Shown: positions 1,449-59,038 of the stretch, in pieces
Position numbering within the stretch: position 1 is the first letter of the stretch
How the letters are laid out: every line of letters starts with the position of its first letter
Assembly: GCA_027620495.1 (NCBI GenBank)
Contig: JAQCEA010000011.1
Coordinates: forward strand, 1 to 64,000
Direction of reading: 5' to 3'
DNA from: Pseudomonadota bacterium
GTDB taxonomy: Bacteria; Pseudomonadota; Alphaproteobacteria; Puniceispirillales; Puniceispirillaceae
DNA length: 64,000 bases
Notes under the pieces: model-generated
What the model was told of the DNA's origin: nothing
The model's input: only the letters and a program-made list of their open reading frames with translations
The model's database searches: none
Program-made: the position numbers and the translations under genes

Positions 1449-4400
1449 ATGGCTAGCCCCGCCTGCCCTGATTGCTCTTCAGAGATGATATTAAGGACAG
1501 CCAAACGTGGCTCTAATGCGGGCAATCAATTCTGGGGGTGTTCAAATTTTCCGAGATGTAAAGGGATCGTAAACATAGACAAAGATGATCCGCAATCAGA
1601 TCCGCAATCATCACAAAGCCAGACAAATACAGAGGCAGAAACAAGTACAACAAAACAAAAAACTGTTTGGTATGACAATCTAAACCGAGAAAATTACAAC
1701 TCTGAGTATATTACCCTCGGCTCTACTCCACATTTTTTAAGTGGACTAAAACTAGCGTCGCTTAGCAGATCTTGTAATCAGTTCAATTTACTCTCAGCGA
1801 GAAGCTTATCCACAAATTTTGACGAAGACGGGAATTATGTCGGCACCATCCTGCAAAAACTTCTAACACGTGGCGACCTTCCATACTGCTCACTAGGAAT
1901 TGAAGAGACGCTTGCGTCTCAAAAGACAGTAAAAAAATCAGTTAAAAAATTTGACAAAAAAGATCCAAATATTGGTTGGTACTGGTGCGCAGAAGCACCT
2001 TTTGATCTGAAAACTGAAATGAATAACAGTCTTCAGCGGCGCAAATTAACTGCATCCGATGTCACCACTATCAAACAAAACACCAGAAGCAGTTTTGACA
2101 GCCCACTCGAAGAAAAATTCTTCACTGAATGGATACCAAACAATTTTGGACCCGATGCACTCCATTGGTTTATACCGCAGGCGCCTCTCGATCGATTGAT
2201 CGATGCAGCTGGCGATGAATTTAGCGCTAGACGAGTAGACTTTCTTTTTTACCATCCATCCTCTCAACCTATTGTGATTGAATTGGATGGGGAAGAGCAT
2301 ATCGAGAGCAAGCAATCGGATGACATTAGAGACAAAAAGCTTACCTCAAATGGTGTTTTTGTTGTTCGCATAAAAAATGAAGAGCTGGTCTCAGGAGACG
2401 GTGAAAACCTTAACCATCTTAAGTCTCTCATTTCAAACAGCTTGGAAAGCAAACCCGCTCAAAAAGAAACTCCGTTCTATGACACAATTAAATTGAGCAG
2501 CATTGCCTCAGGTTTCCAATTTATCTTATCCAAAGCTCTAAGTAGTGGAGCGCTCGACTTAGAGTCTAAAATCTGGAAAATAAAAATTGCGCACGACTTT
2601 AATAATAAAGATTTATTAATTTCTGCCGCTGATAACCTTGCAGATATGGTCTCATCCCTGAGGCAACTATATACAAAAACAACAGGCAATTTAAAAATTG
2701 AGCTGATGTTTGGAAACCCAAAGTCATTCGACTTAGACGTTGGGTTGTTCACAGAGGATAGTCCAACTTCGCTGAACTATAGTGCAATTAAGCATGATTT
2801 TATCTGTTGTTCCGCTTCTGTGCCGGTTGATCTATCAACAAACACGAACACGACATCCATTCAAAAAACTGCACAAAAACTGGACCAACAAGAAGCTACC
2901 GATTTACTGGTTATTTTCTTGCAGAATTTGTTCCGCAAACGCAAGTTCCGAGATCTTCAAGACGTATCAATCCTTAATGTTCTTGAACGGAAAGATACTG
3001 TCACTCTACTGCCAACAGGTGCTGGCAAAAGCATCATTTACCAATTGGCGGGGCTACTTCAACCAGGCATTACACTGGTGATTGACCCAATTGTTGCGTT
3101 GATAGAAGACCAAATACTTGGGCTATCATCCGTCGGAATTGATAAAGCATCTGCGGCTCCAACTGGATTTAATAATGTCCGCAATCGCGAAAAATGGCTG
3201 AAAAGCATCGAGCAGGGTGAGCACCAGTTTATACTGATATCCCCCGAGCGCCTTCAAATGTCTGACTTTAGAGAGACACTTCGTGCATTGGTTGAGGTGC
3301 ACCAAATAAATCTTGCAGTGATTGATGAAGCACACTGTGTTTCTGAGTGGGGGCATAACTTCAGATTTTCGTATTTAAACTTAGCAGATAACTTGAGAAA
3401 GTTTTGCACTTCACCCAGCGGGAAGCCACCAACACTGCTAGCCCTTACTGGCACAGCTTCACGAGCAGTTTTGAGAGAACTGTTGGTCGAACTCAATATA
3501 GACAAAGAAGATGATCAAGCCCTCATCCGACCCGTCGATTTCGACAGAAAAGAATTAAAGTTTAACATCTCAAAAGTCTCACACGGAGGGGACACCTCTG
3601 CTGTTTTTAGGGGCATCCTGAACAGCCTGCCCAATAAGTTCAACCAACCGCCAGGTGAGTTTTATAAACCCTCGGGCAAAAACACCAACTCAGGAATTAT
3701 TTTCACACCTTTCGTAAATGGACGAACTCATGGACTTTTCGCCGTTAAGTCCTCTGTTCAAAAAAATATTTCAGCTCCCGTTACTATTTTCTCTGGCTCG
3801 GCTCCGAAGGGAACCAACAAAATAGAATGGGAGGCTGAAAAACGTTTCAATGCAAGTGAGTTCAAGGAAAACAGAGCTACGGTGCTAGTTGCAACAAAGG
3901 CATTTGGAATGGGCATAGATAAGCCCAACATCCGCTGGACACTGCACATGGGTATTCCCTCTTCCATGGAGGCGTTTTATCAAGAGGCGGGCAGAGCCGG
4001 CAGAGATAAAAATCTCGCTATTTGTAATGTAATTTTCTCTGAAGTTGATGCTGAACAAACCGACAATGCCCTGTCAGGAGACGGCACCCTTGAGGATTTA
4101 CGCATTGCTGTGCAGAAAATGAAACGCAATGATGATGACGTCTCAAGAGCCTTGTTTTTTCACCTAAACGCCTTTTCGGGGATCGACGAAGAATACAAAT
4201 CGATATCTGATGCACTCAGCATCATTGGCAACTTAGACGAAAGAAAAAAAGTTGAATTCACTTTTGATAGTGGCAACAAAGCTGACTTAGAACGTTCACT
4301 TCTTCGGCTGAAAAAGTGTGGGATTATAGAGGACCTCGAAATCAATTACGGTTCTCAAAATATTTTTGTACACATACGCCCCTTCAATTTTGAATTTTCC

Positions 4401-14647: not shown

Positions 14648-15316
14648 TCACCCATTAAGCTTAATTTTTACATATTTTGGATCAAGGTAGTCATGGATAC
14701 CCAGACTTCCACCTTCACGTTCAATGCCGCTTTCTTTGACTCCGCCGAAGGGCGCTTCGGCGGTAGCGAGAGTCATTTCATTGACCCCTACCATGCCGAC
14801 TGAAGCGTATTTTTGAATGAAGGTTTCAAGCGGCATTCTGGGATTTGCCGCGCCAGCTTGCTGACGTATCGCAAAATCAAGCATGGCTTGTTCATGCTCT
14901 ATAAGTATATCAATGGCCGCAGTGTCTTTGTCAGCCGCCATATCGCGCAAACTACGAAATTCGCCGATAAAAATAGGGTAGTTCTCAATTATCTTGGCAA
15001 TGATCACATGCCAGTTTTCATGTTTAAGGCTCGCCGCTTTACCGGTGCCGTCTTTTCGCAAACTGTCTGTATCTGTCGTCACAATATTGTATTTGGCGAT
15101 TAGATACTCGATGGATGAAATCGTAATCCGCTCGATTTCAGCGAACATCAAAAGCGTAATTCGATTAGCGTGGGTTTGATGTTGCGCAAGTTCTCTAAAG
15201 AATGCCTCACCCAAAACCTCTTCTTCGAATGACAGCTTTAACCCCTCATCAAATGACAGGAATTTTCGAGCTTTGATTGACAAAATAATCACCCTAAAAA
15301 AGGCGGATAGATGCAC
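14648..15316 (-). CDS. Chimeric ORF: helical (ferritin-like?) domain + aldehyde dehydrogenase C-terminus
   Basis: 222 residues in two unrelated parts. Residues 1 to about 165 are all-helical with Glu/His-rich helices (MFAEIERITISS, IDILIEHEQAMLDFA), resembling a small four-helix ferritin-like protein. From about residue 170 the text reads VGMVGVNEMTLATAEAPFGG then VKESGIEREGG and a YLDPKYVKI ending. This is the last 50 residues of a succinate- or ketoglutarate-semialdehyde dehydrogenase. That fragment cannot be an enzyme alone, since the catalytic Cys and Glu and the NAD fold are absent. The likely history is a deletion that joined another gene to the remnant of an aldehyde dehydrogenase. Whether the fused product is made is unknown. 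Confidence 0.6.
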   Translation of the reverse strand: MHLSAFFRVIILSIKARKFLSFDEGLKLSFEEEVLGEAFFRELAQHQTHANRITLLMFAEIERITISSIEYLIAKYNIVTTDTDSLRKDGTGKAASLKHENWHVIIAKIIENYPIFIGEFRSLRDMAADKDTAAIDILIEHEQAMLDFAIRQQAGAANPRMPLETFIQKYASVGMVGVNEMTLATAEAPFGGVKESGIEREGGSLGIHDYLDPKYVKIKLNG

Positions 15317-49158: not shown

Positions 49159-49179
49159 CAATACCCTCCTGAAGAAATG

Positions 49180-49215
49180 CCCTCTGACAACGAAAGTTGT
49201 TAGAGGGTTTTTTTT
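49180..49215 (+). terminator. Strong rho-independent terminator after the aminotransferase
   Basis: A twelve-pair stem CCCTCTGACAAC/GTTGTTAGAGGG (one G-T pair) has a GAAA tetraloop and is followed by eight T residues. Confidence 0.95.
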
Positions 49216-49312: not shown

Positions 49313-50230
49313 ATGCAACGACATAATTTCAACATCATCATTTGCGGGTGCGTTTTCGCCTGCTGGCAATTTGCATCGGCGGCAAGTGCCAATACAGAAT
49401 TGTCAAAAATGCGCGATTGCACCGAAATTGAACTAGAGGCCGTGATTGATCAAGATGCCTCACGCGAGGAAAATTTAGCGCGGCTTTCACAGCAATTTTT
49501 TCAATCGGTTAACACAATTGAACATTGTGACCGTGCACAAGATCGTGATGATGCGGCGTCTTCATCCGACAGCGATAGCGCATCTTCCAGCGGCGATGCT
49601 GATGGGGCCAATGCGACAAGTGATGGCGGCGGCGCGGCCGATTCAACAGCCAGCACCGATGCAGATGCTGAAACCGCCAGCAATGCCAGCACCGATGCGG
49701 CCAGCGCATCATCTGAACAAATGACAGCCCCATCAAATAGCGAAAATCCTACCAATATAAACACAGACAACACAGCAACAGACGGTTCAGCCAGCTATAT
49801 GGCGGCAACACAAAATGCAAACCAATTGGATGCCCAATCTGAAGACCAATCTGATGGGCAATCCACCAGTCAAGCGACCCAACCGGCCGCCGCCCCAACC
49901 GCCAGTGGCAGTTTGGTCGGCACCAATTTTGATCAGACCATGACCGCACCAGCCGCGGCGTTTGCCGCGCCATCTACGTCGAATATGGCGGGAACCACAC
50001 CGCAACCCACCCCATCCGAAACCAGCACCACCGGGGCGCAAACCGACACCGCCGAACAAGACCTCAGATTGACAAATGACAAGACACCTGATGATATTCC
50101 AGATGCGGATAATGACTCGGTATTTGAAGCCCAAATCCGGGCGGCGGCAATGGCAGAAACCGACCCGGAAACCAAAAAGAATTTATGGAATGAATATCGC
50201 CGCTATAAGGGGCTTCCTGAACAAAAGTGA
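49313..50230 (+). CDS. Secreted low-complexity (Ser/Ala/Asp/Thr-rich) protein, first gene of the envelope operon
   Basis: 305 residues from the ATG at 49313, which has a GAGGAAAG ribosome binding site. The frame is open 33 codons further upstream. A signal peptide (IIICGCVFACWQFASAASA) is followed by a short helical domain with a Cys pair (MRDCTEIELEAV, TIEHCDRAQ). About 180 residues of Ser/Ala/Asp/Thr/Gln-rich disordered sequence come next, and a conserved-looking C-terminal helix ends the protein (KKNLWNEYRRYKGLPEQ). It looks like a flexible periplasmic or surface protein. It ends 7 bases before the lipoprotein gene. Confidence 0.75.
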   Translation: MQRHNFNIIICGCVFACWQFASAASANTELSKMRDCTEIELEAVIDQDASREENLARLSQQFFQSVNTIEHCDRAQDRDDAASSSDSDSASSSGDADGANATSDGGGAADSTASTDADAETASNASTDAASASSEQMTAPSNSENPTNINTDNTATDGSASYMAATQNANQLDAQSEDQSDGQSTSQATQPAAAPTASGSLVGTNFDQTMTAPAAAFAAPSTSNMAGTTPQPTPSETSTTGAQTDTAEQDLRLTNDKTPDDIPDADNDSVFEAQIRAAAMAETDPETKKNLWNEYRRYKGLPEQK

Positions 50231-50237
50231 GACGAAA

Positions 50238-51566
50238 ATGAAACTTTTCAATCGTATCATCGCAATGCTGCTGATTATCAGCTTGCAAGCTTGTGGCGTC
50301 GGCACACAGAGCCTTTTGGGCAATCTTGGCAGTAAGCCAAATACCAGCAGTCCGGCAGTTGGCCCGGCGTTGTCACAAACGATTGAACAGGCCGAACAGG
50401 CCGAAAAACAGGCCGCCGATGCGCCAACCCGCACGCTTGATATTGTTGTACCAACTTTTGATGCCGGTCTCACCGCCACCAAAGACGGCGACGCCCCAGT
50501 GTGGCCGGAATTGCGCCGTGCAGAGGCCAATCTATTTGCAATTGAGCTGAAAAACGCACTTGAACGTACAGAAAAATTTGGCGCGGTTCGGGTCACACCA
50601 GACCGGTCAGCAACCGCAGCTATCTATGTTATGGGGCGCATTGCTGAATCAAAAGGCCATGAGGTTGAAATTGATCTTGCCGTAGCGGATATCTCAGGTC
50701 GTGATTTGGTCGATGAAAAGGGCGGGTTTGGCTTTGGCAAGCGCAAACCAAAACTGCATGATATTTTCAAAACCAAATCATTTTCGCATAATGTCGATGA
50801 AAAATTTTTCAAAAATCCGCGACATAAGGACAAACAACCTTATCAGCCACTATTTGACGAGGCCGCCGCCTTTGTTGTTGATCTTCTGGAAACCTATGAC
50901 AACAAACAGGTCAATGACCTGAACAAATTAACCGATATGCGATTTGCCGCCAGTTTTTCTGAAGATGCCTTTGCCGAACATATGGAAACCAAACAAGGCC
51001 GGGTTATTTTGACAAGCCTGCCAAGTGAAGATGACAGCATGTATAAAAAAGTCCGCGCCATCCGCGTGCGTGACCAGCTTTTTGTGGATCAATTACAAAC
51101 CGATTACGAACAATTTGCCGCAAAAATCGCACCAAGCTATCGGTTGTGGCAAGAACAAACACTGACCGAATATCAAGCCCAGCGGCAGGCCAAAAAAGAT
51201 ACCGCCAAAGCGGCTGTTGGTGCGGCGCTTATGCTGGGGCTGGCCATTGCCGCTGGATCATCAGCCTATGACAATAATTATGACCCGGTTGGCGACACGT
51301 TGGCGGCAACTGCCATGGTTGGTGCTGGTATGATCAGTGTTGGCCTTGCCAGTGACGCCATCAAAAGTGCTGAAGAAGCCAAAATGCACAATGATTTGAT
51401 CAAAGAACTTGGTGATTCAGTGGAAATTGATGTGGCCCCGAAAGTGGTAGCGTTTGAAGAAAAAGAAAAAGAGCTTGTTGGTGATGCAAAAGAGCAATTT
51501 GCCCAATGGCGGGCATTTCTGAAAACAATTTATGAACTGGAAAAAACCCCAGCCAAAACTTTATAG
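50238..51566 (+). CDS. Outer- or inner-membrane lipoprotein of the envelope operon
   Basis: 442 residues from the ATG at 50238. Lipobox LQAC puts lipidation on C19. After a Pro/Thr linker comes a domain (ELKNALERTEKFGAVRVTP, YVMGRIAESKGHEVEI) reminiscent of periplasmic proteins of the CsgG/FlgT-like class. A helical stretch and a small hydrophobic Gly/Ala-rich segment follow (AAVGAALMLGLAIAAGSSAY). No catalytic motif is seen. Position +2 after the Cys is Val rather than Asp, favouring outer-membrane sorting. Function unknown; probably a structural partner of the downstream channel. Confidence 0.75.
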   Translation: MKLFNRIIAMLLIISLQACGVGTQSLLGNLGSKPNTSSPAVGPALSQTIEQAEQAEKQAADAPTRTLDIVVPTFDAGLTATKDGDAPVWPELRRAEANLFAIELKNALERTEKFGAVRVTPDRSATAAIYVMGRIAESKGHEVEIDLAVADISGRDLVDEKGGFGFGKRKPKLHDIFKTKSFSHNVDEKFFKNPRHKDKQPYQPLFDEAAAFVVDLLETYDNKQVNDLNKLTDMRFAASFSEDAFAEHMETKQGRVILTSLPSEDDSMYKKVRAIRVRDQLFVDQLQTDYEQFAAKIAPSYRLWQEQTLTEYQAQRQAKKDTAKAAVGAALMLGLAIAAGSSAYDNNYDPVGDTLAATAMVGAGMISVGLASDAIKSAEEAKMHNDLIKELGDSVEIDVAPKVVAFEEKEKELVGDAKEQFAQWRAFLKTIYELEKTPAKTL

Positions 51567-51603
51567 CCGCCATCGAAGCCCTAAAAAAACCCACAAGGAA
51601 ACG

Positions 51604-53142
51604 ATGCCCAATTCGGATTTGCTCATCGCCCAGCTTCAGCGTCGCAACCGCATCATGTTTGGTGGCATGCTTGCTGGGTTGGCGGTGATCGCCATCGGTC
51701 TTGGGCTGGTCATGCTGGACGCCACAACCGAGGTAACGCCCCCACCGCCGACAGATACCAGCTCATCTGCCGCGCCAACAAAAAATGCACCCACCAGCCC
51801 AGCATCCGGGCCAACCACATCCGGGCTAACCACATCCGGGCCATTATCTGCTGGCAGTGAACAAGCTGTTACCTCAAACGCGGCTGACCCAGCTACTGCG
51901 GCTGAATCAGCTGAAGACAAAAAGCGTTTTTTGAGCGCGGTGCAAGAATTTAACAGCGGCATAAAGGCAGAGGCGGCGCTGTTTCCCGAACTGGCCGCGT
52001 CATCAGACTATCTGCAAATGATCAACCAGCTTGAAGCTGATCTGGTCAGCCTAACCGGGCAAAACCGCTATAAAGATGCCGCCGCCACCCTCGCCAGCAC
52101 TGCCACCATGCTTGAAACTATGATGGGGGCAGAACTCGATAAATTTGATCAATTGATTGGTGAGGCCGACACAGCATGGCAAAAAAAGGAACTGGCAAAT
52201 CTTGCCGGAATTTTGGCCAAAGCAGGCGCTATTTATCAAGGAAACCAAGACCCTATAATTCATTTTCAGGCACTTGCGGATGACTGGCCTGCGATAAGCG
52301 TGGCGCTGCAACGCGCCGATACAGCCGGTATTGAAAATAACCCTGCAGACGAACAAAAAGCATTACAGATCATCACCGGGCTTCAGCATGACATCGCTGG
52401 CTTGGATGACCGATTGGCCGATGTAGGCAGACGACTGCACCAACAGCGCGTTGATGATTTGCTTGGCCGCATTGCCGCGGCACTGGCCGCAGATGACGCC
52501 AATACAGCCCGCACAGCATTGGCCAAATTGCGCGCGCTTGATCCAAACACACCGGAAATTTCAAAATTGGGTGCCGATTTAGCGCAGCTTGAAGAACAAA
52601 TTGCCTTTCAAACGACCATGCGGGCGATGGACCAATTTGCGGCTAATGACAATTGGGCCGCGGCACAAAAACTGGCCAACCGCCATCGAAAAGATTTTGC
52701 GACCTATCAAACATTTCAACAACGTGCCGATTTTATCGAGCAGATATATCAACTGATCACTCGCGTGACAAAACTTCTTGATAGCCCTGATGACTTCATC
52801 AAGCCATCAACCAAGAAGCTGGCAACCAGGCTGATCGTCGATGCAAAATTGGCGCTTGCCTATAGCCCAACCTTGACCAAATTAAGCGCCGCACTCAGCG
52901 AGCATTTGGCCAGCTATACAACGCCGCTTGATATTATTGTGATGTCCGACAATGTCACCTTTGTCGAGGTTAAATCAGTTGGCCAAGTTGGCACGGTCGT
53001 ACAAAAGACCATTCAATTACTGCCGGGCGATTATGTTTTTGTTGGCAAGCGCAAGGGCTATGTCACCATTCAGGTACCCGTAGCGCTGCGCCCTGGTGAT
53101 TCAGGCAAAGAAATTTCGGTGATTGCCCATGAACAGATTTGA
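51604..53142 (+). CDS. Inner-membrane protein with coiled coil and C-terminal PEGA domain
   Basis: 512 residues from the ATG at 51604 (ribosome binding site AAGGAAA). One N-terminal membrane helix (MFGGMLAGLAVIAIGLGLVM, residues 17-38), a Pro/Thr/Ser-rich linker, a long helical region (about 90-430) with repeat-like spacing, and a PEGA-type beta domain at the end (IQLLPGDYVFVGKRKGYVTI) are visible. The bulk faces the periplasm. It ends 14 bases inside the next gene. PEGA domains bind surface or envelope components in other systems. Confidence 0.75.
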   Translation: MPNSDLLIAQLQRRNRIMFGGMLAGLAVIAIGLGLVMLDATTEVTPPPPTDTSSSAAPTKNAPTSPASGPTTSGLTTSGPLSAGSEQAVTSNAADPATAAESAEDKKRFLSAVQEFNSGIKAEAALFPELAASSDYLQMINQLEADLVSLTGQNRYKDAAATLASTATMLETMMGAELDKFDQLIGEADTAWQKKELANLAGILAKAGAIYQGNQDPIIHFQALADDWPAISVALQRADTAGIENNPADEQKALQIITGLQHDIAGLDDRLADVGRRLHQQRVDDLLGRIAAALAADDANTARTALAKLRALDPNTPEISKLGADLAQLEEQIAFQTTMRAMDQFAANDNWAAAQKLANRHRKDFATYQTFQQRADFIEQIYQLITRVTKLLDSPDDFIKPSTKKLATRLIVDAKLALAYSPTLTKLSAALSEHLASYTTPLDIIVMSDNVTFVEVKSVGQVGTVVQKTIQLLPGDYVFVGKRKGYVTIQVPVALRPGDSGKEISVIAHEQI

Positions 53143-55102
53143 TGATGATCTGCGCCGCGCCGCCCGCGGCAAACGCACCACCGCGGTGATTGCCAGTTTT
53201 GCTATTTTGGTGTTTGGCCTTGTGCTGGCCGGTTATTTTCTGTCATTTCGCAGCCTGTCGATTGTGGTGCAACCAGAAAACGCCAAACAAACCGCCATGA
53301 TTGAGGTTACTGACGGTCTGGCCTTTTCCCTTGCCAGTCGCATTTATGCTGTCTCTGACCAAGTCCAAATCAACATATCCGCGGCGAAATATCAGACCGC
53401 AAATCTTACCATTCATGGTTCAGATTTTGGCAGTGATATGACCGTGATTTTACTGCCAAAACCTGGCCGGTTGCGTGCCTTGGTCACGCCGTCAACATCG
53501 GTAAATTGGTATCTCAACGGAAATTTTGTCAGCCAGTCCAACCGTCTTGATACCGAACTTGCCCCCGGCGACTACCAGCTTGCCTTGACATCTGACTATC
53601 ATGAGAGGGTTGAACGCGATCTGACGATTACGGCGGATGACGATACCAGCCTTGCCATTGATTTGCCGGGCATTACCGGTACCCTGCGCGCCACAATGAC
53701 CCCACCCGGCACAATGCTGATTGATGGCCAGCCTGTCGATAGCACGTCTCCCATCACCCTTGGCCCCGGCCCGCATCTCATCGACCTTACAGCCCCCGGC
53801 CATAAATCTGTCAGCGACAGCATCACCATCACCCAAACACAGCGTGATTTTACCCGGTCGTATAATCTGCAACCGCTTCCCATACGCATGCAACACCAAT
53901 TGACCCCGCCCGGCGGCAATTTATTTGTGAATGGCAAGCGGCAAGATATCAGCAAAAACACAATCGAGATCCCCTATCGCAAAAGGCTAGATATCGAATA
54001 TGCCAAGCCCGGTTTTGTGACCAAAACACAATCGCAAACCGTTGCGCCCGGCGAGATGGTCGCATTATCACTTGTGCTTGACCCAGAATTTGCCGACATC
54101 ACGATCACCGCCAATATCACCGCTGATATTTATCTTGATGGACAGCTTTTGGGGACAACCCCATTGCAGATATCTGTGCCAACAGTGCCAGCAACGCTAG
54201 AGGTACGCGCCGATGGCTATAAAGGCGAAACAAAATCAATCACCCCAAAACCGAAACAACCGCAAATCCATGAATTTACCCTGATCACCACCGCCACGGC
54301 AAAATTACAAAATGCGCCACAATCCTATAAAAATGCGAACGGCATTGATTTTCGTCTGATCAAACCAAGAAATGCGCGGTTTGAGATGGGCGGCAAACGG
54401 TCAGAAAAGGGCCAGCGGGCAAATGAATTTTTGCGGCAAATTGAATTGCAACGCCCATTCTATGTGGCCACGCATGAACTGACCGAAGCACAATTTTATG
54501 GCAAAGGCAGCAACCTGCCAGTGGTTAATCTCAGCTGGGAACAGGTGGCCATCTTTTGTAATGAACTAAGCATAGCTGAAGGTCTGACACCCTTCTATCG
54601 CACTAAAAATGGTCGTATCAGTGGGTTTGATCCAATGGCGGATGGCTATCGGTTTATTTCTGAAGCCGAATGGGAATTTCTTGCCCGCGCCTATCGCCGA
54701 CCAAAGCAAACCATCTTTCCATGGGGGGATGATGCAGTGGTACCACCAAATGTTGGTAACTTAGCTGGTGATAAAGCCAAGCCAGCCTCGGACAGCTATA
54801 TTGCTGGCTATCAAGATGGATTTAGCGGCCTTGCACCTGCCAAATCCTTTCCAGCTGATCTATCTGGCCTGTATGATTTTGTCGGCAATGTCAGTGAATG
54901 GACACATGATTCCTATATGTTTACGCCGCCACCATCTGACAAGATTGAAATAGACCCGCTTGGCCAATACAGCGCTGGGCCGCATGTCATTAAGGGTGCG
55001 AATTTTAAATCGGCTAGCCGCACCGAATTGCGCGCCGCATTTCGTGATGGCAGTGATACGCCACGTGATGATGTTGGGTTTCGGCTTGCCCGCTATCTAT
55101 AA
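53129..55102 (+). CDS. Inner-membrane PEGA-repeat protein with FGE/SUMF1-like domain
   Basis: 657 residues from the ATG at 53129 (an in-frame TTG lies 6 bases earlier). One membrane helix at about 15-37. At least three PEGA-like repeats occupy about 100-390 (LAPGDYQLALTSDY, LGPGPHLIDLTAPGHKS, LEVRADGYKGETKSI). Residues about 400-657 are a formylglycine-generating-enzyme/SUMF1 fold (ARFEMGGKRSE, YRFISEAEWEFLARAY, GLYDFVGNVSEWT, GVGFRLARYL-like end). The cysteine-bearing segment of true FGE reads GANFKSASRTELRAAFRDG here, so the catalytic Cys is absent. A binding or scaffold role is likely. Confidence 0.85.
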   Translation: MNRFDDDLRRAARGKRTTAVIASFAILVFGLVLAGYFLSFRSLSIVVQPENAKQTAMIEVTDGLAFSLASRIYAVSDQVQINISAAKYQTANLTIHGSDFGSDMTVILLPKPGRLRALVTPSTSVNWYLNGNFVSQSNRLDTELAPGDYQLALTSDYHERVERDLTITADDDTSLAIDLPGITGTLRATMTPPGTMLIDGQPVDSTSPITLGPGPHLIDLTAPGHKSVSDSITITQTQRDFTRSYNLQPLPIRMQHQLTPPGGNLFVNGKRQDISKNTIEIPYRKRLDIEYAKPGFVTKTQSQTVAPGEMVALSLVLDPEFADITITANITADIYLDGQLLGTTPLQISVPTVPATLEVRADGYKGETKSITPKPKQPQIHEFTLITTATAKLQNAPQSYKNANGIDFRLIKPRNARFEMGGKRSEKGQRANEFLRQIELQRPFYVATHELTEAQFYGKGSNLPVVNLSWEQVAIFCNELSIAEGLTPFYRTKNGRISGFDPMADGYRFISEAEWEFLARAYRRPKQTIFPWGDDAVVPPNVGNLAGDKAKPASDSYIAGYQDGFSGLAPAKSFPADLSGLYDFVGNVSEWTHDSYMFTPPPSDKIEIDPLGQYSAGPHVIKGANFKSASRTELRAAFRDGSDTPRDDVGFRLARYL

Positions 55103-55191
55103 ACCGGCCAATTTGGTATGGTTTGATCAGGTCTTGAATAAAAATTTACCTGCTGGACAGCAGATAGTCACAACATAATGATGAGGCTGAT

Positions 55192-55308
55192 ATGCGAAAA
55201 ATCTTCATTCTGATGCTGTTAGGGTTCGTTGTCGCTGGTACCGCTGGCGTGGTTTATGCGGCAAAAATCAAAGTCGGCACGGCCGTCACATTTCCGGTGG
55301 ATATTTAA
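55192..55308 (+). CDS. 38-residue membrane microprotein
   Basis: This frame is too short for usual gene finders. It reads MRKIFILMLLGFVVAGTAGV followed by VYAAKIKVGTAVTFPVDI. An N-terminal hydrophobic helix with a VYAA end could be a signal peptide, leaving a 15-residue secreted tail, or an anchor. Its stop overlaps the next start as TAATG. A GATGAGG sequence precedes the ATG at 55192. Placement immediately before the TolQ-like gene resembles small accessory subunits of membrane channels. Confidence 0.55.
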   Translation: MRKIFILMLLGFVVAGTAGVVYAAKIKVGTAVTFPVDI

Positions 55309-56075
55309 TGGGACAGACAATCAAGGGTTTATTGGCGCTCAGCCTATCAACAATCGCGGTTCATGCGATGTATATTATCGTGATCAGGCCAAAAGCCATG
55401 ATGATGGAAGCGCTGGCCGCGCAAGGTCAGCCCGAATTGACCCGTTCAATCTGGATCATCTTGAAAGATTTTGAACAGGAAGTCTGTTTCATTTTGATGT
55501 TTTGGGCGATGTTTCTGATTTTCGATAAAATCATGCAAATCACCAAAAGCAGCTTTTTGTTTGATGTCGATTTCTTGAAAGATAATGATTTATCGCCGTC
55601 CAACATAAAGCAGGTTCTGGCCGAACTTGATTCCATGAAACATGATCTTGCTGATGCGCCTTTGATCCGGGTGTTGCGGTCAAGTCTGCGCCGATTTCTG
55701 GTTGCTGGGGATATTCATTCTGCCTCAGAAGTTGTCGAAAGCGAATGCGCCGCGCTTGCCAATAAAAATGAAGCAGAAAATTCAATGATCCGCTATTTGA
55801 TCTGGGCGGTGCCATCGATTGGATTTATTGGCACTGTGCGCGGTATTGGCGAGGCATTATCGCGGGCTGATGAGGCGCTGGCAGGCAATATTTCCGGTAT
55901 GACAAGCAGCCTTGGCGTGGCGTTCAATTCAACACTTGTGGCGTTGGTGATCAGCATTGTTTTGATGTTTCTGCTCCATCAATTACAGCGCTTGCAAGAC
56001 AGCCTTATTGTTTCGGTCAATGATTATCTGCAACAAAAGGTGTTAGACCGGCTGAGCAAAGCCAGCAGTGGCTGA
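55308..56075 (+). CDS. TolQ/ExbB/MotA-type proton channel subunit
   Basis: 255 residues. Two N-terminal helices (LSLSTIAVHAMYIIVIRP and VCFILMFWAMFLIF) precede a cytoplasmic helical domain. The conserved channel segment is AVPSIGFIGTVRGIGEALS, followed by GMTSSLGVAFNSTLVALVIS and a last helix. This is the pattern of TolQ/ExbB with the P-x-x-G-x-x-G-T-V turn. In known systems five such subunits surround two ExbD/TolR/MotB helices and use the proton gradient to do mechanical work. The overlap with the microprotein (TAATG) and a 5-base gap to the next gene place it in the operon. Confidence 0.88.
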   Translation: MGQTIKGLLALSLSTIAVHAMYIIVIRPKAMMMEALAAQGQPELTRSIWIILKDFEQEVCFILMFWAMFLIFDKIMQITKSSFLFDVDFLKDNDLSPSNIKQVLAELDSMKHDLADAPLIRVLRSSLRRFLVAGDIHSASEVVESECAALANKNEAENSMIRYLIWAVPSIGFIGTVRGIGEALSRADEALAGNISGMTSSLGVAFNSTLVALVISIVLMFLLHQLQRLQDSLIVSVNDYLQQKVLDRLSKASSG

Positions 56076-56080
56076 TCATC

Positions 56081-57148
56081 ATGCGCCGCACCGAAACTTC
56101 AACATTGGCCTTTCTAGATGTGATGGCGTGCGGGTTAGGTGCTGTCATCTTGATTCTTGTTGTGCTGAAACAACAAGCCCCACCTAATACCCCGCCCCAG
56201 CCTGAACCAATTGTCAGTGCCGAACAGACCGAAGCTGATTTAAATAATCTGCAAAATGAATTGGCCGCATTGCTTGCCGCACAAGATACCGCCAAAGGCG
56301 ATTTGACCAAACAACAACAAATTGTGGCCGCGATCAATACCGCCCTTGAAAAGACCCAAAATGATCTGGTATCTGCCAACACCCAAGACGCGGCATTGGA
56401 CCAAGCCATTGCCAGTGCCAAAAACACATTGGCACAACAACAAACAGAACCCCCGCCAGACGCCATCGACACAGTGCGTACCACCCAGCCACAATATCTG
56501 GTCGGGCTGAAAGTGACCGGCAAAAAAATTGTCGTTCTGCTTGACCGTAGCGCGTCCATGACCGCCAGAGACCTTGTCAAGATCGTGCAATATAAAGCAG
56601 GCCCCAGCACCGCGCGCCAGCGTGCAGAAAAATGGGTCAACGCGCTGAATGCTGTCTGGTGGATGACCGCCCGCGCCCCGGCGCAATCGCAAATCCAAAT
56701 TGCCTCATTTAGCACCAATACAAGATTTCATACCACAAATTGGATTAGAACAAACGACAGCGCGGCGTTGAGCGCCGTGAAAGCCGAAATGGCCTCTCTG
56801 GTGCCTGAAGGTAGCACTAATTTAGAAGATGCTGTTGACGCCGCCATTAAAACTGGGGCCGACAGCATTTATATCATTACCGATGGTCTGCCGACAGCCG
56901 CGCCGGGCGGCCAGACTCTGCTTGGCCTTGATGGATGTGGCAGCAAATGGTTCAAACGCAAGCAAGTAACAGGCGAATGCCGAGTTAGCCTATTTCAACG
57001 TACGGTTGCCGCCGCCGCTGGCAAGCCGGTGCGCATTTCGATTGTGTTGATGCCGCTTGAAGGCGACCCGGATGCGGCCCCGCTATTTTCTAAATGGGCG
57101 CTTAGCAAAGGTGGCGTTTTGCTGAGCGCGGCAAGGAACTGGCCATGA
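56081..57148 (+). CDS. MotB/ExbD-like anchored VWA protein 1
   Basis: 355 residues. N-terminal single helix with the motif LAFLDVMACGLGAVILILVV, in which D13 would sit at the position of the proton-carrying Asp of MotB/ExbD. A coiled coil (about 45-125) leads to a VWA domain with complete MIDAS: DRSAS (from D155), Thr in GSTNLEDA, and Asp in YIITDGLPT. The VWA domain would be periplasmic and bind a partner through a metal ion. It overlaps the next gene by 4 bases (ATGA). Confidence 0.88.
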   Translation: MRRTETSTLAFLDVMACGLGAVILILVVLKQQAPPNTPPQPEPIVSAEQTEADLNNLQNELAALLAAQDTAKGDLTKQQQIVAAINTALEKTQNDLVSANTQDAALDQAIASAKNTLAQQQTEPPPDAIDTVRTTQPQYLVGLKVTGKKIVVLLDRSASMTARDLVKIVQYKAGPSTARQRAEKWVNALNAVWWMTARAPAQSQIQIASFSTNTRFHTTNWIRTNDSAALSAVKAEMASLVPEGSTNLEDAVDAAIKTGADSIYIITDGLPTAAPGGQTLLGLDGCGSKWFKRKQVTGECRVSLFQRTVAAAAGKPVRISIVLMPLEGDPDAAPLFSKWALSKGGVLLSAARNWP

Positions 57149-58107
57149 GCAGACAACCAACAGCCGCGCAAAAGCGTGAAAGGCTCGACCCGTTCAGCCT
57201 GTCTTTTCTCGATATTATTTCCTGCGGGTTTGGCGCGGTTGTTGTGCTTATCCTGATTTTTCGGTTTGACCCATTTCCAGATGACAGAGCCGCCCCACCG
57301 CCGCCAACCGACACTGCCGCCGCCTATAACAGCATTTTGGCTGAGGCCGCCATCAGTGAAAAAACCAAACAGGCAAAAGCGGCACTTGATGATATGTCAG
57401 CTGCACAAACCGCCAGCAACGAAACTGCACAAAGGCTGCAACAACAGCTAGATCAATCACGCCAGCAACTTGCCGCCAAACAAGCGAGCAACGCAGAAAA
57501 GCAACAACAGCTTGCCGCGTTGAAACGCCAGATTGAGCAAGTCAAAATTGCTGGGGCCACAACCGAAGTGCCAAGTGACCCGGATGATGAAGCCGGCGGT
57601 ATTTTGGTAGATCGGGACTATGTCATATTCATTGTTGATACATCTGGCAGTATGCGTGAAATATGGGGGCGCGTGGCGGATCGAATGAACCAAATTTTAC
57701 TGCAGCACCCACAGGTCAAGGGCATCCAGGTGATGAATGACAATGGCAGCTATCTTGTATCTGCCTATGCCAAACGCTGGATCACGGACACCCCGAAAAT
57801 GCGCGAGCGGATTTTACGACTATTTAATTTATGGTCATCGACATCAAACTCTAGCCCGGCCGAAGGGCTGGTGCGCGCGCTCACAGATTTTCAATCTTCG
57901 ACCAAAGACATGTCGATCTATGTGTTGGGTGATGATTTTTCTGGTGGTGATTTTGATAGTGTTATCGAAGCGGTGCGCAAGCTGAATAGCGGCGATGCCC
58001 GCATCAATGCGATTAATTTTATTAATCCAAACGCAACAACGGATAGATTTTCCATTTTGATGCGTGAAATTGCACTGGAAAATCACGGCACACTCATCAC
58101 CATGTGA
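57145..58107 (+). CDS. MotB/ExbD-like anchored VWA protein 2
   Basis: 320 residues, paralogous to the preceding gene. The N-terminal helix reads SFLDIISCGFGAVVVLILIF (D23), then an Ala/Gln-rich coiled coil (about 70-135) and a VWA domain with MIDAS DTSGSM (D165), Ser in NSSPAEGL and Asp in YVLGDDFSGG. The two proteins share the F-L-D-x-x-x-C-G-x-G-A-V core, suggesting they form a heterodimer in the channel. Last gene of the operon; a hairpin follows. Confidence 0.88.
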   Translation: MSRQPTAAQKRERLDPFSLSFLDIISCGFGAVVVLILIFRFDPFPDDRAAPPPPTDTAAAYNSILAEAAISEKTKQAKAALDDMSAAQTASNETAQRLQQQLDQSRQQLAAKQASNAEKQQQLAALKRQIEQVKIAGATTEVPSDPDDEAGGILVDRDYVIFIVDTSGSMREIWGRVADRMNQILLQHPQVKGIQVMNDNGSYLVSAYAKRWITDTPKMRERILRLFNLWSSTSNSSPAEGLVRALTDFQSSTKDMSIYVLGDDFSGGDFDSVIEAVRKLNSGDARINAINFINPNATTDRFSILMREIALENHGTLITM

Positions 58108-58154: not shown

Positions 58155-58379
58155 CTAATCAATATGTGTCAGTCGACCGTCTTTATAGGCGCTCCATAAT
58201 TCCAGCAACATTTCCTCAACTTCATCATTTGACAAAAATTGTGGCTTTTCTTCAAAGCTATCAAACACCTTGGCGATAAACTCTTCTGGTGCGTTGCATT
58301 GCGGCAAAAACTGTTCGGCCTTATGCAGGAAAATATGAAGATCTGTTGCCCATTTTTTAACTTCTTGATTGAACCGCAT
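58155..58379 (-). CDS. Small acidic protein, hypothetical
   Basis: 74 residues from the ATG at 58379 (MRFNQEVKKWATDLHIF). A 14-codon upstream extension is possible. Acidic, helical C-terminal half (DEVEEMLLELWSAY). No signal, no membrane helix, no family recognised. It is convergent with the VWA operon. A perfect inverted repeat (58440-58461) lies 60 bases upstream of its start and may be its operator. Confidence 0.6.
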   Translation of the reverse strand: MRFNQEVKKWATDLHIFLHKAEQFLPQCNAPEEFIAKVFDSFEEKPQFLSNDEVEEMLLELWSAYKDGRLTHID

Positions 58380-58439
58380 GAAAACCTCCCGTGGGTTGGG
58401 TATGTAAAAAAATGATGTCATCTAAGCCTTGAGTAAAGT

Positions 58440-58461: not shown

Positions 58462-58597
58462 TCAAGTGTTTTGACAAATTTTGACAACGCCTATTTCACA
58501 GCAGATCATTTCCGAATTGCCCAAAACCGCCCTCTATTGCTAGAGCTTGTCTGTCGGTGCTGGCGCGCCGGTCTTAGTTTGCTGGAGGCATAGTTAT

Positions 58598-59038
58598 TTG
58601 CTGGCACATCTCGGGGCCTATAGCGGGTTGTTTATCGCCGCATTTTTGGCCGCAACAATTTTACCAGCACAATCAGAGGCCGGGCTTGCCGCGCTCATTC
58701 TGGCATCTCCGGCATCGGTCACATTGCTTGTTGCGACCGCCAGCCTCGGCAATATTTTAGGATCAGTGGTGAATTGGTATCTTGGCCGCGGCATAAACCG
58801 CTTTACCGGCAAACGCTGGTTTCCGGCAAGCGAAGACCAGCTATCGCGGGCGACCAACTGGTATAGCCGTTACGGCCGATGGAGCTTGCTGTTAAGCTGG
58901 GTGCCAGTTATCGGCGACCCATTAACGGTGGTGGCTGGCATCATGCGCGAGCCGCTTTTACGGTTTTTGCTTATTGTTGGGATAGCAAAAACTGGCCGGT
59001 ATATTGTCGTCGCCCTACTGGCCTTGCAGTGGTTATGA
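58598..59038 (+). CDS. YqaA/DedA-like membrane protein
   Basis: About 146 residues from the TTG at 58598, which has GGAGG 9 bases upstream. The longest frame starts at another TTG at 58547. Four helices, with family features FLAATILPAQSEAGLAALI and LSWVPVIGDPLTVVAGIMRE. The VTT/DedA family has been tied to lipid or envelope transport. It is convergent with fni, with a 6-base overlap of the ends. Confidence 0.75.
   Translation: MLAHLGAYSGLFIAAFLAATILPAQSEAGLAALILASPASVTLLVATASLGNILGSVVNWYLGRGINRFTGKRWFPASEDQLSRATNWYSRYGRWSLLLSWVPVIGDPLTVVAGIMREPLLRFLLIVGIAKTGRYIVVALLALQWL

Follow-up and report, generated by a model that had tools for sequence, protein, structure and literature searches.

The window analysed here, a stretch of 64,000 nucleotides from a Pseudomonadota bacterium of the family Puniceispirillaceae (assembly GCA_027620495.1, contig JAQCEA010000011.1, positions 1 to 64,000; source genome 2.40 Mb in 48 contigs), holds on its plus strand eight genes, g1 to g8 (49313-58107), that recur as a set, in one order, in dozens of genomes. 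They encode a predicted secreted protein (g1), a lipoprotein (g2), two larger proteins with an N-terminal hydrophobic helix (g3, g4), a predicted secreted microprotein (g5), a MotA/TolQ/ExbB-family subunit (g6) and two proteins with a VWA domain (g7 or VWA1, and g8 or VWA2). We regard it as reasonably probable that a g6 pentamer and a VWA1/VWA2 heterodimer form the core of a trans-envelope machine driven by the proton-motive force. An earlier note on this DNA had described eight tightly spaced or overlapping plus-strand genes, and the open reading frames bear this out: neighbours overlap or sit no more than 37 nucleotides apart, the exception being an 89-nucleotide gap between g4 and g5. Throughout, signal peptides and transmembrane helices were called by eye or by a simple hydrophobicity rule.

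Co-occurrence of these genes, which the earlier note had proposed as a check, proved very strong. A scan of a named genome collection with a VWA2 profile returned 293 relatives; the 80 best were retained and correspond to 79 loci. All eight genes stand in one order at 56 of the 79; 17 lack leading genes only and begin at a contig end, in three the set is complete but g1-g3 are inverted and lie past VWA2 on the other strand, and three are other cases (L072, L119, L120). The hidden Markov models of this survey were trained on the 79 loci themselves, while those of a first survey, restricted to the plus strand, were built on ten alphaproteobacterial loci together with the window. Two pairs of the 79 overlap (L101/L103, L042/L044), and in L065 and L087 VWA1 and VWA2 were assigned to one frame. 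Eight repeats (L042, L043, L048, L054, L061, L073, L064, L103) are counted in the gene-order survey and excluded from the counts of residue conservation, the VWA1 Asp, the g5 tail and the PVD segment and from the position-specific scoring matrix (PSSM) counts reported below; short or truncated proteins are likewise excluded from residue conservation.

The set was also sought at other taxonomic depths. Within the organism's own order, g6 is carried by 3 of 61 genomes, and in a sample of the class a VWA2 match (E<=0.001) was obtained in 12 of 385: nine, the source genome included, have a strong VWA2 match with a weaker VWA1 match upstream, one (G411) has a short fragment, and two matches are weak. 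Eleven loci were fetched from this class search. In nine of them, eight distant and one from a close relative, the eight genes follow the same order; a tenth locus begins mid-operon and keeps the order from g2 on, and the eleventh is the fragment locus L039, described below. The g5 gene was missed by tblastn in six of ten class-search loci, and its tail is nevertheless present in all ten. A phylum sample matched in 17 of 398 genomes, with 15 loci fetched, of which nine keep the complete set in order, six of them on contigs already among the 79. Two further loci, L190 and L191, are divergent and carry the set plus an extra gene of 434 and 451 residues, respectively, between the g6 and VWA1 genes (L190 3549-4853, L191 3395-4750), for which no Pfam match was found at E<=0.1; L198 and L199 are truncated, and L192, on the same contig as L072, has foreign sequence upstream of g5. 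L200 was discarded as a false hit, and the hit in genome G538 was rejected as a coiled-coil match, its locus reading by eye as a coiled-coil protein with TolQ-like and ExbD-like genes. Seven of the ten class and genus loci and eight of the 15 phylum loci are also among the 79; complete in-order loci beyond these are L034-L036 and, from the phylum search, L186, L193 and L196.

Such recurrence in dozens of genomes is more than chance would give. Clustering of flanking open reading frames of at least 100 residues revealed no widely common neighbour, the largest clusters being ABC-ATPase-like (16 loci) and SDR-like (11 loci), both on mixed sides and strands and both labelled by eye, so that the set consists of these eight genes. 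By record title the hosts fall in the Alpha-, Beta-, Gamma- and Zetaproteobacteria or are of Desulfobacteraceae type, many of them metagenome-assembled genomes (MAGs), and carriers titled as cultivated strains include Methylophaga muralis, Sneathiella litorea, Magnetovibrio blakemorei and Mariprofundus sp. EBB-1. Those nearest to the window within that collection are titled SAR116 cluster (VWA2 88% identical) and Candidatus Puniceispirillum (73%). A MAG titled Acidimicrobiaceae (L044) also has an operon whose VWA2 is 88% identical to that of the window; it overlaps the SAR116 record L042 and is probably a mis-binned contig.

The case for a motor rests on the last three genes. The earlier assignment of a TolQ/ExbB/MotA-type subunit is borne out for g6 (55308-56075), which lies well over the Pfam cut-off (MotA_ExbB, PF01618, 1.2e-13, 51.4 bits against 22.9). 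A TolQ-like profile gave no match against the PDB at E<=0.01. Two threonines, Thr176 (55833-55835) and Thr209 (55932-55934), are invariant in 79 of 79 sequences, and we take them to be equivalent to the pore-helix Thr positions of this family. Downstream, VWA1 (56081-57148) and VWA2 (57145-58107) each comprise an N-terminal helix, a coiled-coil-like stretch and a VWA domain. The short helix, delimited by eye, is of the type F-[LI]-D-[IVL]-[MIV]-x-C-G-[LF]-G-A, with its Asp at the start of the hydrophobic segment in both families: Asp13 of VWA1 (56117-56119) is kept in 81 of 81 rows with the motif (one of them, L087, being really the VWA2 frame), and Asp23 of VWA2 (57211-57213) in 81 of 82, the remaining row having a gap. 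By hhalign (99.6%) the two N-terminal regions are themselves homologous.

The metal ion-dependent adhesion site (MIDAS) is conserved in both of the VWA proteins that the earlier note had described. VWA1 exceeds the VWA_2 cut-off (2.3e-6, 28.6 bits against 27), and its DxSxS motif (56543-56557; D155, S157 and S159, 81 of 82 each), T246 and D268 (82 of 82 each) are accompanied by conserved Cys286 and Cys300. VWA2 falls under that cut-off (0.0047, 18.0 bits), and 14 of 59 members of its family match VWA_2 at E<=0.01; its MIDAS comprises DTSGS (57637-57651), S237 and D263, with D165, S167, S169 and D263 kept in all 82 sequences. The VWA2 profile gave three PDB matches at E<=0.1, all to the coiled-coil stretch. 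A Pfam scan of the eight proteins at E<=1 found no ExbD (PF02472), and VWA1 and VWA2 have VWA matches in place of a peptidoglycan-binding/OmpA-like or ExbD periplasmic domain. Elsewhere in the source genome, the sole ExbD/TolR match among three scored candidates lies on another contig, beside another TolQ-type gene.

Several results weigh against this interpretation. Alignment of the VWA helices with TolR by hhalign gave 0.8% for both, compared with 0.1-0.2% for three control helices (10 usable TolR rows), and PSSM comparison with TolR gave z 1.29 for VWA1, with Asp aligned on Asp in 67 of 76 cases, and z 0.12 for VWA2, with Asp on Asp in 7 of 78, while the unrelated helices of g3 and g4 reached 1.04 and 0.89. 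Membership of VWA1 and VWA2 in the TolR/ExbD/MotB family is thus not indicated by any of the three profile comparisons (PF02472, hhalign, PSSM). One locus (L039, in G411) moreover holds a VWA2 fragment of 48-53 residues (14681-14824) with the other seven genes absent from 15.5 kb; it may be a remnant or an assembly artefact. Since neither hhalign nor PSSM reached significance, the proposal that the VWA helices work like those of TolR or MotB is one that we infer from the Asp, the Thr residues, the gene context and published models. The earlier note had cast the VWA proteins as moving subunits, and this view retains the invariant Asp, the g6 threonines and the MIDAS on its side but loses any backing from TolR profiles; its adhesive VWA domains, opened by proton flow, are likewise conjectural. 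Were the absence of a significant VWA-TolR relation given full weight, g6 and the VWA pair could be pictured as a static or signalling envelope scaffold in which the VWA proteins serve as MIDAS-dependent assembly factors and the Asp is purely structural, yet the invariance of Asp and Thr, together with the AlphaFold 3 placement that PMC12204202 reports for sets of the same description, makes such a scaffold decidedly unlikely in our judgement.

In the favoured arrangement, that of a proton-driven machine, five g6 subunits would form a ring around the membrane helices of a single VWA1-VWA2 pair, protons would pass via D13 and D23 past T176 and T209 of g6, and the VWA1/VWA2 heterodimer would turn or shift in response. 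Coiled-coil stalks would pass this motion to the pair of VWA heads in the periplasm, and the metal sites of these heads may grip acidic ligands. The heads would act on g3 and g4, scaffolds with an inner-membrane anchor, g2 would take up force as an outer-membrane lipoprotein, and g1 and the g5 peptide may be secreted partners or ligands. The pentamer and the heterodimer, their coupling to protons, the delivery of force to the outer membrane and the contacts among partners all belong to this proposal.

The proteins encoded upstream give the putative motor its periplasmic context. The earlier description of g1 (49313-50230) as a secreted low-complexity protein holds for its predicted secretion, but low complexity is confined to a middle linker: the N-terminal region has two conserved Cys (C36 in 58 of 60 sequences, C72 in 59 of 60), and the C-terminal approximately 50 residues are also conserved (W292 in 58 of 60). 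No Pfam match was obtained for g1 or g5, and g2 and g3 had weak sub-cut-off matches only. The lipoprotein that the earlier note had reported is g2 (50238-51566), whose lipobox a loose pattern finds in 66 of 67 members and a stricter one in 60 of 67. Position +2 of a lipoprotein decides its sorting to the outer membrane by the Lol system, and Asp occurs there in none of the 66 loose-lipobox members, so that outer-membrane sorting is expected. A structural model of g2 (predicted local distance difference test, pLDDT, 75) gave no plain Foldseek match at E<=0.001, and the fold call rests on Z-scored alignment of its domain 65-220, which resembles FlgT (Z 11.4), CT253 (10.9), PelC (10.8), an LPHT ring (10.7), CsgG (10.0) and the N-domain of TolB (9.6); this suggests a fold common to ring-forming or outer-membrane-associated periplasmic proteins. 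In the divergent gammaproteobacterial locus L120, a short contig on which g2 was not seen, an LpoB-family lipoprotein (3060-3569; PF13036 6.7e-6, 26.5 bits against a cut-off of 22.3) follows the VWA pair.

Both g3 and g4 had been taken for PEGA proteins, and this stands for g4; for g3 (51604-53142) no Pfam PEGA match exists in the window, yet its C-terminal end is predicted to be PEGA/transthyretin-like. The g3 model (pLDDT 88.5) shows an N-terminal hydrophobic helix, a disordered linker, a TPR-like superhelix and a C-terminal beta-sandwich, of which residues 442-511 superpose on a transthyretin-like domain at a modest Z of 8.2 (root-mean-square deviation 2.1 over 69 aligned residues). A TPR_2 match is present in 22 of 52 family members, and fold matches to the helical repeats were set aside as generic. 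The g4 protein (53129-55102) combines an N-terminal hydrophobic helix, PEGA repeats (1.1e-17) and a domain resembling formylglycine-generating enzyme (FGE; approximately 54503-55093; FGE-sulfatase 3.3e-29), and both matches exceed their Pfam cut-offs. SUMF1/FGE enzymes and PorK match this domain about equally (NCBIfam GldK 2.9e-16; PDB 9mzu/9ots 1.7e-10). Its C-terminal region, where we take the catalytic Cys pair of FGE to lie, has no Cys in 70 of 71 members and one in the other, so that the domain is probably structural, and an identity of g4 as a formylglycine-generating enzyme was rejected because the pair is absent. Identity with GldK/PorK was also rejected (TIGR03525, 59.8 of 350 bits). 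Between g4 and g5 of a Mariprofundus MAG (L067, 1986-2644) lie two genes that by eye resemble a toxin-antitoxin module of Phd/VapC type.

These partner proteins invite comparison with the type IX secretion system (T9SS), and a device analogous to it could use the g6-VWA motor together with g4 and g2 to export or assemble a surface component such as g1. The match of the g4 domain, Cys-free in nearly all members, to PorK/GldK, the resemblance of g2 to PelC and CsgG, and the predicted secretion and conserved ends of g1 would suit such a device; against these points, the GldK score is far under its cut-off while FGE enzymes match g4 equally well, no outer-membrane barrel was recognised in the set, and the flanks supply no widely common gene of at least 100 residues. 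We consider a secretory role rather unlikely.

The most distinctive component is g5 (55192-55308), a 38-residue protein between g4 and g6 that answers to the microprotein of the earlier note. A hydrophobic, signal-like start is followed in 75 of 76 sequences by an A-X-A-like site (a loose rule applied without a control), and the consensus tail reads I-S-L-N-S-P-V-S-F-P-V-D-I-stop. The last five codons in the window (55291-55305) encode FPVDI, an exact ending shared by 70 of 76 sequences, the others ending in FPVGI (two), FPLDI, FPIDI, FPGDI and LPSDI; the final Ile and the Pro are conserved in 75 of 75 tails, the Phe in 74 and the Asp in 73. As the 76 tails comprise 40 distinct nucleotide versions, selection acts on the peptide. 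No g5 was detected in L062, L069, L083, L099, L119 or L120, although L119 ends in VPFPVDI by pattern. In L190 and L191, g5 has 70 and 95 residues, is hydrophilic past the signal and ends in SYPVDI and SFPVDI, respectively, which speaks against a role in membrane packing.

Conservation that runs exactly to the stop codon after a signal-like N-terminus might also mark a leader or arrest peptide of the secretion-monitoring kind, one that regulates how the TolQ-like gene is translated and is not a structural part, the more so as g6 begins within 4 nucleotides of the g5 stop in 58 of 76 loci (start codons by rule). The identity of the stop codon varies, however (TAA 36, TGA 26, TAG 14; n=76), the distance from stop to g6 start ranges from -1 to 80 nucleotides, and the longer hydrophilic part of L190 and L191 precedes an ending of the same type; these three points tell against arrest without being decisive, and we hold it to be rather unlikely.

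Within the motor reading, a concrete idea for the tail as a MIDAS ligand comes from complement, where the free C-termini of C3b and C4b chelate the VWA MIDAS of factor B and C2 (PMC12847986). By analogy, the VWA1/VWA2 heads might grip, through their MIDAS metal, the ...SPVSFPVDI-COO- end of g5 in a proton-driven, integrin-like catch-and-release cycle, with the motor loading the peptide onto, or stripping it from, an outer-membrane partner, and with a segment of VWA2 as a built-in competitor. This segment, GG-I-P-V-D, lies directly ahead of the VWA domain and reads PVD in 75 of 82 sequences and GGILVD in the window (57595-57618); its likeness to FPVDI may be mimicry or chance. Such a cycle is speculative, and we think it improbable in this specific form.

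Around the operon, the bounding terminators of the earlier note were recovered in part: a strong intrinsic terminator-like site lies on the left (49179-49208, plus strand; 13-pair stem with a T-tail), but a second left-hand hairpin and the right-hand one are absent from the terminator list. To the right, two small genes (58155-58421 and 58547-59038, the latter presumably DedA-like) are both kept in two close carriers (L037, L038). The 58547-59038 neighbour was also found in the 7-8 kb fetched from each of five same-genus genomes that do not carry the operon, and the other flanking genes were not found in those fetched regions. Nine further proteins scanned in the rest of the window all match known families, a tRNA search of the window found none, and a single thiamine pyrophosphate (TPP) riboswitch (Rfam RF00059, 19679-19770, minus strand) precedes a minus-strand gene for a solute-binding protein. 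Searched against plasmids and phages at E<=1e-5, the VWA2 protein of L049 had no match. Three distant plasmid matches were obtained for g6. On an Anabaena plasmid (L040, 8605-10005) a MotA/TolQ/ExbB-family gene stands two genes past the type III-B CRISPR gene cmr6, with one hypothetical gene between; a Microcystis plasmid has a similar TolQ-like match.

Among known systems, Zorya supplies the nearest named model for g6 (ZorA, PADLOC 4.4e-5, 20.7 bits), but the present set has VWA proteins in place of the Zorya partners, and membership was rejected because the ZorB, ZorC, ZorD and ZorE models match none of the eight proteins, which upholds the earlier separation from Zorya. The gliding machinery of Myxococcus (PMC4488436) likewise unites a TolQ-type subunit, two TolR-like partners (AglRQS) and proteins with a VWA_2 domain, but its CglB and CglD are separate predicted outer-membrane lipoproteins and not motor helices. 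With T9SS and Gld gliding, where GldLM acts as a proton motor of the 5:2 type (PMC9389320), the set shares the FGE-like domain of GldK/PorK, but g4 carries PEGA repeats and a membrane helix where GldK/PorK has a lipobox, and its GldK score is low. The claim of separateness from Gld accordingly stands in that GldL, GldM and GldN models match none of the eight proteins, and is blurred in that g4 matches PorK/GldK about as well as it does FGE enzymes. With Tol-Pal and Ton the set has in common its MotA/TolQ/ExbB-family subunit and a g2 domain near the TolB N-domain; it differs in that its eight proteins include no TolR/ExbD, TolA/TonB, TolB propeller or OmpA-domain match. The earlier note, pointing to the lack of a TonB/OmpA domain, had also set it apart from Tol-Pal and ExbBD.

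The closest counterpart is the TPH-vWA family (PMC12204202; Mol Biol Evol 2025 msaf138, June 2025), a second membrane-tethered vWA family of unknown function that co-occurs tightly with tolQ, has heterologous vWA pairs, no tolR/exbD and a proton Asp in the helix, and was modelled with AlphaFold 3, for relatives of an Idiomarina protein, as a dimer inside a TolQ pentamer with a Thr ring. The present set likewise places a tolQ-like gene beside a heterologous vWA pair without tolR/exbD, has one candidate proton Asp per vWA helix together with the TolQ Thr, and occurs in Proteobacteria, Verrucomicrobia being also named in that paper; it differs in that the paper's main text mentions no PEGA, FGE, formylglycine or microprotein. 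The likeness is one of description, from which a single family including the Idiomarina set may be supposed. No other description of the operon appeared among the matches listed in a full-text literature search, and by term search VWA is absent from the main texts of PMC9389320 (5:2 motors) and PMC12505986 (MotAB relatives). As the reading of the core was in print by June 2025, the earlier claim of a new machine can hold for the full eight-gene set but not for its core. What the present analysis adds is that set, the predicted folds of g2 and g3, the Cys-less FGE-like domain of g4, the FPVDI microprotein and the conserved MIDAS. The published prediction of VWA dimers inside TolQ-like pentamers thereby takes shape as a system of eight defined genes whose parts can be named and which includes a short conserved peptide. 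If the motor reading is true, this system would join Tol, Ton, Mot, Gld and Agl as a further route by which proton flow does work at the outer membrane.

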